Part shown: positions 15,438 to 44,539 of the stretch, in pieces | Position numbering within the stretch: the first letter of the stretch is position 1 | How the letters are laid out: each line of letters starts with the position of its first letter | Assembly: GCA_029550925.1 (NCBI GenBank) | Contig: JAKPGL010000090.1 | Span: 1 to 44,539 of the forward strand | Origin: Planctomycetota bacterium | GTDB lineage: Bacteria; Planctomycetota; Planctomycetia; Pirellulales; Thermoguttaceae | Direction of reading: 5' to 3' | Length of the DNA: 44,539 bases | Notes under the pieces: model-generated | What the model was told of the DNA's origin: nothing | What the model saw: the letters and a program-made list of their open reading frames with translations, nothing else | Databases searched by the model: none | Translations under genes and position numbers: made by a program

Positions 15438-15466
15438 GAATCTCTTTCCTCCGGAGAGACGCCATT

Positions 15467-15693
15467 TACGTAGCTTAGCCTGTCTAGGCTGTAGCTTAGG
15501 CTGTCCAGCCTGAGCCATCCCCGGCTAAACAGCCGGCGTTACAGCGCCCGCTAACAGCGGGCGTTACGTAGCTTAGCCTGTCTAGGCTGTAGCTTAGGCT
15601 GTCCAGCCTGAGCCAATCGCTGGCTAAACAGACGGCGTTACAGCGCCCGCTAACAACGGGCGTTACGTAGCTTAGGCTGTCCGGCCTGATGAG
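15467..15693. repeat. Tandem array of palindrome-rich 98-99 bp units
   Basis: Units start at TACGTAGCTTAG: 15467, 15565 and 15664, giving periods of 98 and 99 bases; the third is partial. Each unit holds CCTGTCTAGGCTG, AGGCTGTCCAGCCT and a GCCCGCTAACAGCGGGC hairpin. The sequence is related to repeats at 4617, 21169 and 38101. It occupies most of the 15438-15885 gap; the rest of that gap shows nothing else. It lies between convergent genes. Confidence 0.85.
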
Positions 15694-38100: not shown

Positions 38101-38280
38101 GCATGCGGTAACGCCGGGTAACGCCGTCTGTCCAGACGGCGGTTGACTCAGTCTAGACAGACTAGGTTACTAGCTCAGTCTAGACAGACTAAGCTACAGG
38201 CTCAGTCTAGACAGACTAAGTTACGTACCGCCGTGTACCAAGACGGTTAGGCAAGCCAGCCTAACAGACCTGGTTACAGC
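38101..38280. repeat. Cluster of extragenic palindromes with a 3 x 27-bp tandem array
   Basis: A CCGTCTGTCCAGACGG palindrome is followed by three 27-base units starting at 38147, 38174 and 38201, each reading CTCAGTCTAGACAGACTA then a GGTTAC/AGCTAC/AGTTAC end. A diverged unit at 38232-38277 contains GCCAGCCTAACAGACC. It is related to the repeats at 4617, 15467 and 21169. The rest of the 37858-38304 gap shows nothing else. Confidence 0.8.
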
Positions 38281-42665: not shown

Positions 42666-43019
42666 TTATTTTTTGGCGGGATTCTTTTCTGCAGGGCCCC
42701 CCGATTTGGCCCGACGGCATAACTGCAGGAGATCATTCACCGTTTGCCAGATTTCTTCTTCGGGGGAATGGTTGCGGAGAGCATCGACGACCTGGGCAGC
42801 AGCTTCGCTGATAGGGGGGAATCCATACCCGCCGGCTGAACCTTTCAATTGGTGGCACAGGCGATGCAGGTTTTCTAGGTCGCCTTGATTCAAGCAGTCC
42901 AGGATTTTTTGGATCCGTTCGGGCATTTCCTGGACGAACAGGGTAACCAATTCTTGGAAGTCGGGGTCGGTTCCGATGGTGGAATATAGGGGTTGGGTAG
43001 TTTGCACTAAATTGGTCAT
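42666..43019 (-). CDS. Histidine phosphotransfer (HPt) domain protein
   Basis: 117 residues, a single HPt four-helix domain. The phosphorylated residue is predicted as His56 in 'LHRLCHQLKGSAGGYGF', the classical HxLKGxxxxxG motif. A Lys/Pro-rich tail follows. Known of the family: carries phosphate between receiver domains in multistep phosphorelays. No kinase or response regulator lies next to it, so its partners are encoded elsewhere. The ribosome binding site is weak (GAAAG). Confidence 0.9.
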   Translation of the reverse strand: MTNLVQTTQPLYSTIGTDPDFQELVTLFVQEMPERIQKILDCLNQGDLENLHRLCHQLKGSAGGYGFPPISEAAAQVVDALRNHSPEEEIWQTVNDLLQLCRRAKSGGPAEKNPAKK

Positions 43020-43375
43020 CGTTTTTTTCTTTCAAATATAAAGAAGTCCCGGGAGATAGAAAATTTGTTTTGTCGATGGAAACAGGAACGTCTATCAAAA
43101 GAATAGGTTTTTTCATGGGAAAAAAGCGTGGGGAAGTGTAGATTTCTCTGTATTTTTAGCAGACTGCTTAATCGATATAGATTTCCTATTCGGCATATTC
43201 TTTTCATTTGATATTTTGAGACCACGTAATCTACATAGTTTGGCTGAGATAGGAATCCTGGTTAATCTTTGGTCTCTACGCCGTCGATACCTATCCCTAG
43301 AATGGTCGTAGAGGTTGTATCTGCGCCAGAGTGTGTGGGTATCTGAATCGGTTCCTCTAACAAGGAGTCAGTCGA
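43020..43375. other. AT-rich intergenic region between divergent genes
   Basis: 356 bases, clearly more AT-rich than the surroundings, between the divergent HPt and cysteine-rich genes. A TTGATA (43208-43213) without a good -10 partner is the best promoter candidate for the latter. AAGGAG at 43360-43365 is its ribosome binding site. No RNA gene was recognised. Confidence 0.4.
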
Positions 43376-44011
43376 ATGAACCGCCGCATCCTATTTCTGA
43401 TTGTGGCTGCTGGTGCAGCCCTGCTGCTTGCCTCCCATGCTGAGGCAGGCTTATTGAGGAAGTGTTGTGTTTCCACTTGTGAACCCAAAACCTGTGAGCC
43501 GGCCACCTGCGCTCCGAAGACCTGCGAGCCCGCTTGCTGCGACCCCTGCTGCAAGCCCCGGCTGATCGACCGGATTCGGGCTCGTCTGGCTTGCCGGAAA
43601 GCCTGCCGGTGCGCCGCCACCTGCGAGCCGAAGACTTGCGAGCCGAAGACTTGCGAGCCGGCCACTTGCGGTCCGAAGACCTGCGATCCTTGCTGCAAGC
43701 CCCGGCTGATCGATCGGATTCGTGCTCGTCGGGCCTGCCGGAAAGCCTGCCGTTGCGCCGCTACCTGCGCTCCGAAGACCTGCGAGCCGAAGACTTGCGA
43801 ACCGGCCACCTGCGGTCCGAAGACCTGCGAGCCCGCTTGCTGCGATCCTTGCTGCAAGCCCCGGTTGATCGACCGGATTCGTGCTCGTCGGGCCTGCCGG
43901 AAAGCTTGCCGGTGCGCCGATGCGTGCTGCCCGGCTACTTGCGAGCCTGCTGGCGCTCCGGCCCCAGCGCAACCGGCTCCTCCGGCGCCTGCTCCTAAGC
44001 CTGCTGCCTAA
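43376..44011 (+). CDS. Secreted cysteine-rich repeat protein
   Basis: 211 residues. A signal peptide ends at about 'ASHAEA/G'. The mature part is built from three modules: several C-x-P-x-T pentapeptides (CEPKT, CEPAT, CGPKT, CAPKT), then 'CDPCCKPRLIDRIRARRA', then 'CRKACRCAATC'. I count 38 cysteines. The end is an Ala/Pro-rich tail. No known domain is recognised. The DNA repeats are highly alike, which points to recent internal duplication. AAGGAG lies 10 bases before the ATG. Possible roles (inference): a disulfide-linked wall or surface protein, or a metal-binding protein. Known: planctomycete envelopes are rich in cysteine proteins. It is convergent with cysteine synthase. Confidence 0.85.
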   Translation: MNRRILFLIVAAGAALLLASHAEAGLLRKCCVSTCEPKTCEPATCAPKTCEPACCDPCCKPRLIDRIRARLACRKACRCAATCEPKTCEPKTCEPATCGPKTCDPCCKPRLIDRIRARRACRKACRCAATCAPKTCEPKTCEPATCGPKTCEPACCDPCCKPRLIDRIRARRACRKACRCADACCPATCEPAGAPAPAQPAPPAPAPKPAA

Positions 44012-44075: not shown

Positions 44076-44117
44076 AGCGGCCCGTTGGCCCCCGCCCAAC
44101 GGGCCGCTTTGCTTTTT
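44076..44117. terminator. Strong terminator shared by convergent genes
   Basis: A perfect 13-bp stem (44076-44088 / 44096-44108) with a 7-base loop is followed by TTTGCTTTTT. It lies 65 bases after the cysteine-rich gene and 15 bases from the end of the minus-strand cysteine synthase gene. Confidence 0.85.
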
Positions 44118-44131
44118 CTATGGCAGAGCGA

Positions 44132-44539
44132 CTACTCGGGAAAGAGTTTGGTCGATAGGTAGCGTTCGCCCAGATCGGGCAGGACCACGACAATGAGTTT
44201 TCCACGGTTTTCTTGGCGTCGGGCCAGTTGCAAAGCCGCCCACGCAGCCGCCCCAGAACTGATTCCGCAGAAGATTCCCTCCAGTTGGGCCAACCGACGC
44301 GCCGTCTCCATCGCATCCTCATCCTGAACCTGGATCACCTCGTCGATGATCTTCAAGTTCAGGACATCGGGAATGAATCCGGCGCCGATCCCCTGGATGG
44401 AATGTCGGCCGGGTTTGAGTTCCTGCCCGGCCAATTTTTGACTGATGACAGGACTATTGGCCGGTTCAACAGCCGTCATTCGCACGGAAGGTTTTCGGGA
44501 TTTCAGCACCTCGCCTACACCGGTGATCGTGCCGCCGGT
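44132..44539 (-). CDS. cysK: Cysteine synthase (O-acetylserine sulfhydrylase), C-terminal part
   Basis: The 135 C-terminal residues are visible; the gene runs off the window end, so its start and PLP lysine are not seen. Visible motifs: '[17 protein letters not shown]' (PLP phosphate-binding loop region), '[12 protein letters not shown]', '[22 protein letters not shown]', '[16 protein letters not shown]' and the end '[21 protein letters not shown]'. Known of the family: the PLP enzyme makes cysteine from O-acetylserine and sulfide in the cytoplasm. CysK and CysM are hard to separate here, but the '[12 protein letters not shown]' stretch fits CysK. It lies next to a 38-cysteine secreted protein, which may be coincidence. 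Confidence 0.93.

Follow-up and report, generated by a model that had tools for sequence, protein, structure and literature searches.

The window, the whole 44,539-nucleotide stretch of planctomycete DNA analysed here, carries a gene for a secreted, Cys-rich repeat protein that belongs to an undescribed family nearly confined to Thermoguttaceae. The protein is probably a wall matrix component that cross-links through disulfides and engages the YTV proteins (PF07639). This reading is favoured because the repeat protein shares pentapeptide runs with YTV proteins, YTV proteins have a role in the wall, the planctomycete wall has been described as a disulfide-bonded sacculus, and no PBP transpeptidase (PF00905) was found in the source genome.

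The gene and its repeat modules

The N-terminal segment of the encoded protein resembles a signal peptide and ends in AEA followed by G. This export signal, as expected of a disulfide-cross-linked envelope protein, was judged by eye and is kept in the orthologs. All Cys residues (38/38) lie in the mature protein, the composition is about 20% Cys and 15% Pro, and the sequence contains 21 C-x-P motifs in total. Given that Cys accounts for a mean of only 0.85% in the larger ORFs of the window, this content is far outside chance, the probability of at least 38 Cys in 211 aa being about 6e-38. Thus, the 38 Cys of a secreted protein, as stated in a preliminary description of this DNA, were borne out by a 211-aa ORF with an export signal and with every Cys in the mature part.

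The ORF is a real gene, as seen from its dN/dS, its conserved position beside an Hpt gene and its upstream element. Codon comparisons among congeners gave dN/dS values of 0.28 (window and G001), 0.10 (window and G002) and 0.24 (G001 and G002), and the substitutions fell mostly at third positions of its frame. The corresponding values were 0.16–0.23 for the neighbouring Hpt-like gene and 0.03–0.07 for cysK, placing the repeat gene near Hpt, with weaker constraint than cysK.

The three repeat modules of the preliminary description were confirmed as three helix cores, CCKPRLIDRIRAR(L/R)ACRKACR, separated by TCxPx pentapeptide runs (Table 1). The CC-D-P-CC cluster attributed to every module is missing from module 2, which reads TCDPCC. 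At the DNA level, the copies are 79%–86% alike: ungapped identity to copy 1 was 79% for copy 2 and 85% for copy 3, and TRF reported 86% matches. The helix cores differ at 4–5 of 63 nt between copies, and these differences are mostly silent. Therefore, the earlier terms "nearly identical" and "active expansion" were too strong. Length variation between species does occur, with 3, 3 and 2 modules in the three congeners, and the modules are under purifying selection.

An AlphaFold2 model built from nine orthologs (pLDDT 54, linkers mostly below 50) predicted a signal helix followed by one helix per module core, and supports only an architecture of short helices on disordered, Cys-rich linkers. 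A Foldseek search of the PDB with this model returned no fold match. One PDB sequence match, to Ruminococcus bromii Amy16 (E 0.008), was attributed to composition.

Two other repeats were observed in intergenic parts of the window. One, at 15466–15681, consists of a 99-bp unit present 2.2 times with short inverted-repeat segments (GTAGCTTAGCCTGTC..., GCCCGCTAACAGCGGGC) and is REP- or MITE-like; the other, at 38147–38224, is a 27-bp palindromic unit, CTCAGTCTAGACAGACTAAGTTACAAG, present 2.9 times.

Table 1. Positions of the repeat protein gene, its parts and its surroundings in the window.
Feature	Position	Strand	Remarks
Hpt-domain-like neighbour, 117 aa, divergent	42666..43019	-	Named from sequence motif; kept beside orthologs across genera
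Upstream element, promoter-like, CCTGGTTAA-N16-CGTCGATA-N6-CCTAGA	43257..43301	+	About 95 nt before start codon; single genome copy
Ribosome-binding site AAGGAG	43362..43367	+	By sequence; AGGAG invariant across aligned leaders
Cys-rich secreted repeat protein gene	43376..44011	+	211 aa, 38 Cys, ATG start; purifying selection against two congeners
Signal peptide, residues 1–24, MNRRILFLIVAAGAALLLASHAEA followed by G	43376..43447	+	Judged by eye; near-identical in orthologs; helix predicted 3–22
Tandem DNA repeat spanning three modules	43475..43947	+	170-nt copies begin at 43475, 43619, 43778
Helix module 1, CCKPRLIDRIRARLACRKACR, residues 59–79	43550..43612	+	Core comparison; predicted helix 63–79
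Helix module 2, CCKPRLIDRIRARRACRKACR, residues 106–126	43691..43753	+	Core comparison; predicted helix 111–126
Helix module 3, CCKPRLIDRIRARRACRKACR, residues 159–179	43850..43912	+	Core comparison; predicted helix 164–179
Intrinsic-terminator-like inverted repeat (AGCGGCCCGTTGG / CCAACGGGCCGCT, then TTTGCTTTTT)	44076..44108		Between two convergent genes (repeat protein gene, cysK-like)
cysK-like gene (cysteine synthase), 3' part, convergent	44132..44539	-	Neighbour kept in genus and G026

Family distribution and the conserved locus

No Pfam family matched the repeat protein over its cut-off, and only Keratin_B2_2 and DUF7157 appeared at E up to 10; a search of NCBIfam gave no match. The earlier statement that no known family was recognised therefore holds for these curated libraries, but the protein is a member of a multi-gene Thermoguttaceae family. 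At a threshold of E up to 1e-3, 27 of the 37 Thermoguttaceae genomes had relatives, as did 3 of the 23 genomes drawn from the order's other families. Across a phylum-wide sample with ten candidates scored per genome, at least 5 of 294 genomes had a match at 1e-8, two Thermoguttaceae among them. The named records with relatives are metagenome assemblies of Thermoguttaceae, Pirellulales and one Planctomycetia. Many genomes contain several copies, and the source genome itself has further members at C51 and C161. The common plan comprises a signal peptide, Cys-Pro linkers and short CC-K/R-P helices; the window protein has all three and occupies the Hpt-linked site with the upstream element. The helix pattern was not found in L009 and L019. 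The C51-type paralog has fewer Cys in G001 (16, contig-cut) than in G000 (23) and G002 (25). On the minus strand of L025 (G024), from position 95 onward, another Cys-rich ORF, built with CKPECKCNPCRCGEKCP repeats, adjoins a family member.

The window, G001, G002, G005, G012, G018, G028 and G026 all have the divergent Hpt-like protein beside the gene. Convergent cysK is found in the genus and in G026 and lies near a relative in G030. A functional link to cysK was treated as weak, given that G005 has a different neighbour. In the complete 4.8-Mb genome G026 (L015 / L101), the ortholog lies between Hpt and cysK and has a different repeat (ACEKPACEPC) and His-containing helices.

The upstream element, with the consensus YCTRGTnAA-N16/17-CGTCGATA-N6-CYTAGA, had one match in the whole genome, and orthologs from several genera have it between −93 and −103. 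Its sites scored 30–35, and six shuffled versions of the window reached 23 at most, although the site scores are high partly by construction because most sites entered the scoring matrix. A scan of the G026 locus did not find the element. A structured RNA leader, suggested by a hairpin (CTCTACG..CGTAGAG) in the genus, was rejected: the fold of nine sequences reached −1.6 kcal/mol with one compensated pair. With no conserved RNA fold and nothing relevant in an Rfam search of the leader, the block was read as a promoter-like DNA element, probably of the type that an alternative sigma factor would recognise. The element was not found at YTV loci or at the C51 and C161 paralog loci, and a regulon shared with the YTV genes was accordingly discarded.

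The same arrangement was found in G004, a genome with no protein match by sequence, where the Hpt gene adjoins the element and a 59-Cys protein with CCRPSLCERIKARCCC. This protein (L102, 2103–2723), located through synteny and the element, has 34% Cys in the stretch covered. In G025 and G033, also with no protein match, the Hpt gene was present and the stretch examined held no Cys-rich ORF.

A candidate component of the cell wall

Chemical work of the 1980s led to the inference of a disulfide-held protein wall in planctomycetes, to which YTV proteins have since been tied. The description of this wall as a protein sacculus with disulfide bonds is given in PMC2754498, which cites Liesack 1986 for it. 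YTV proteins are the main constituents of SDS-boiled Gemmata obscuriglobus walls (PMC5287468) and were top-scoring in walls of Tuwongella immobilis (PMC8567305). One YTV protein belongs to the essential set of Planctopirus limnophila and was suggested to be a regulator of wall rigidity (PMC10632474).

The source genome encodes a YTV protein of 338 aa (C97; PF07639, E 1e-21) that contains STCAPATCQPATCTPATCAPATC, and a CxPxT run, CAPATCQPATCTPATCAPATC, is common to this protein and the repeat protein. Among YTV loci from the source genome and its relatives (about one locus per relative), runs of at least three CxPxx occurred at 7 of 17 Thermoguttaceae loci, one of them in the source genome, and at 0 of 15 loci from the order's other families, while shuffled YTV proteins gave an expectation of 0.004 such loci in all. 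All seven genomes with pentapeptide-bearing YTV proteins (7/7) also carry the Cys-Pro repeat family. The shared pentapeptides could be convergent low-complexity sequence. YTV proteins were present in 58 of 60 genomes as against 30 of 60 for the repeat family; the repeat protein is therefore at most accessory.

Some planctomycetes make peptidoglycan too (PMC4432640). PF00905 was not found in the source genome, the two congeners or the complete genome G026. Within the family, however, this domain was present in 13 of 27 carriers of the repeat family and in 1 of 10 non-carriers. Gene presence thus does not go with PBP loss, and simple replacement of peptidoglycan was rejected. An oxidase search of the source genome found no VKOR, and DsbA remained below the cut-off, a gap that concerns its YTV proteins just as much.

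If the repeat protein is such a wall matrix protein, it would be exported, lose its signal peptide and become a structural component of the planctomycete cell wall. The Cys-Pro pentapeptide linkers, predicted to be disordered, would stay extended, and the short CC-K/R-P helices could serve as repeated docking or packing units. On oxidation, the Cys would form numerous disulfides within and between molecules, linking the protein with itself and, as the common sequence suggests, with YTV proteins. Repeat and Cys number might be free to vary because cross-link density would matter more than an exact fold.

Such variation was evident among the orthologs. In positional orthologs that were uncut or nearly so, Cys counts ran from 23 to 59, and the plan of Cys-Pro linkers plus helices mostly stayed. 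In the G002 ortholog, all Cys (25/25) align to Cys of the window protein, and the remaining deficit is mostly a missing module. In the G001 ortholog, 16 of the 38 window Cys positions hold A, L, T, V, G, W or Y (mostly A, L, T, V), with one gap, and the replacements occur at matching places across its three modules. Cys loss in the G001 species may affect two genes, this ortholog and the C51-type paralog. Such drift in Cys number is easier to reconcile with a bulk disulfide network than with a metal cluster. Of the two roles proposed in the preliminary description, the disulfide-linked coat is therefore better supported, by the YTV pentapeptides, the Cys drift and the disordered linkers with helices, and metal binding fits less well. 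The latter role would imply a secreted metallothionein-like protein whose paired Cys hold Cu, Zn or other thiophilic metals outside the cytoplasm and so protect the cell in metal-rich water. Some CC, CxC and CxxC spacings do occur among the 38 Cys, and small secreted proteins of such composition could chelate soft metals. This explanation is nonetheless rather unlikely: Cys number is not kept, the Cys spacings seen most often are 4 and 5, with an intervening Pro, unlike the CxC of metallothioneins, the mature protein contains no His, the neighbours are Hpt-like and cysK rather than metal genes, and no metallothionein matched in Pfam or NCBIfam.

The predicted helices amid disorder, the net charge of about +20 and helix cores that hardly vary within the genus and whose copies differ mostly at silent sites would also suit a precursor of cationic disulfide-rich peptides, from which three KPRLIDRIRARRACRKACRC units are excised for an antimicrobial or signalling function and the linkers act as spacers. 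Such a precursor is very unlikely, however, given that orthologs differ widely in net charge (−4 to +22), that the helix sequence drifts between genera, that the linkers match the helices in Cys richness and recur in YTV proteins, and that no protease, peptide exporter or modification gene adjoins the locus. Similarly improbable is a biased low-complexity protein without a precise role that persists through repeat slippage and is tolerated as a sink for sulfur or amino acids; although the numbers of repeats and of Cys vary, as does net charge, and the Pfam matches were only to other Cys-Pro-rich families, the gene is under purifying selection (dN/dS 0.10–0.28) close to that of its Hpt neighbour, its site and upstream element are conserved across genera, and a Cys-rich protein occupies the site even without sequence similarity (G004).

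A disulfide-cross-linking wall matrix role leads to a more tentative proposal. The family might form a second class of planctomycete wall protein apart from YTV, a disulfide "glue" built from Cys-Pro linkers with short helices and having its own dedicated promoter, which would cross-link the YTV network through the shared pentapeptides. If so, wall cross-linking could be controlled independently of the principal wall protein. The Cys-rich repeat family is a concrete candidate for a missing wall component in organisms where no PBP transpeptidase was detected.

Comparison with known Cys-rich proteins

Metallothioneins are like the repeat protein in their very high Cys content, but the repeat protein is exported, has C-x-P-x-x spacing and does not conserve its Cys number. 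A metallothionein would combine a profile match with a fixed Cys array; no Pfam or NCBIfam profile matched, and the array is not conserved.

High-sulfur keratin-associated proteins consist of Cys-Pro pentapeptide repeats that form a disulfide-cross-linked matrix. They differ from the repeat protein in being mammalian and intracellular, and they lack both a signal peptide and basic helices. The match to Keratin_B2_2 (PF13885) reached 21.5 bits against a cut-off of 27, so that the window protein falls outside this family, while the C51 paralog passes with 30.5 bits. The match most likely reflects composition, that is, convergence.

The chlamydial proteins OmcA and OmcB are not known to consist of Cys-Pro pentapeptide repeats. 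Like the repeat protein, they are Cys-rich, and they belong to the envelope of a related (PVC) phylum; no match to a chlamydial outer-membrane protein family was obtained in Pfam (E up to 10) or NCBIfam. Their complex gives the cell rigidity through disulfide cross-links (PMC6752827). The repeat protein would be similar to this complex, and to the keratin-associated proteins, in its mode of action.

The YTV proteins share most with the repeat protein, being secreted, Cys-rich, built of repeats and specific to planctomycetes, with CxPxT runs in several members from the same family. PF07639 did not match the repeat protein at E up to 10, which places it outside the YTV family. It is dominated by Pro and Cys with short helices and lacks the YTV/VYETR repeats; its family is narrower in distribution, and the upstream element is not shared. 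The repeat proteins thus constitute a new family of an already known kind, the Cys-rich, disulfide-linked envelope proteins.
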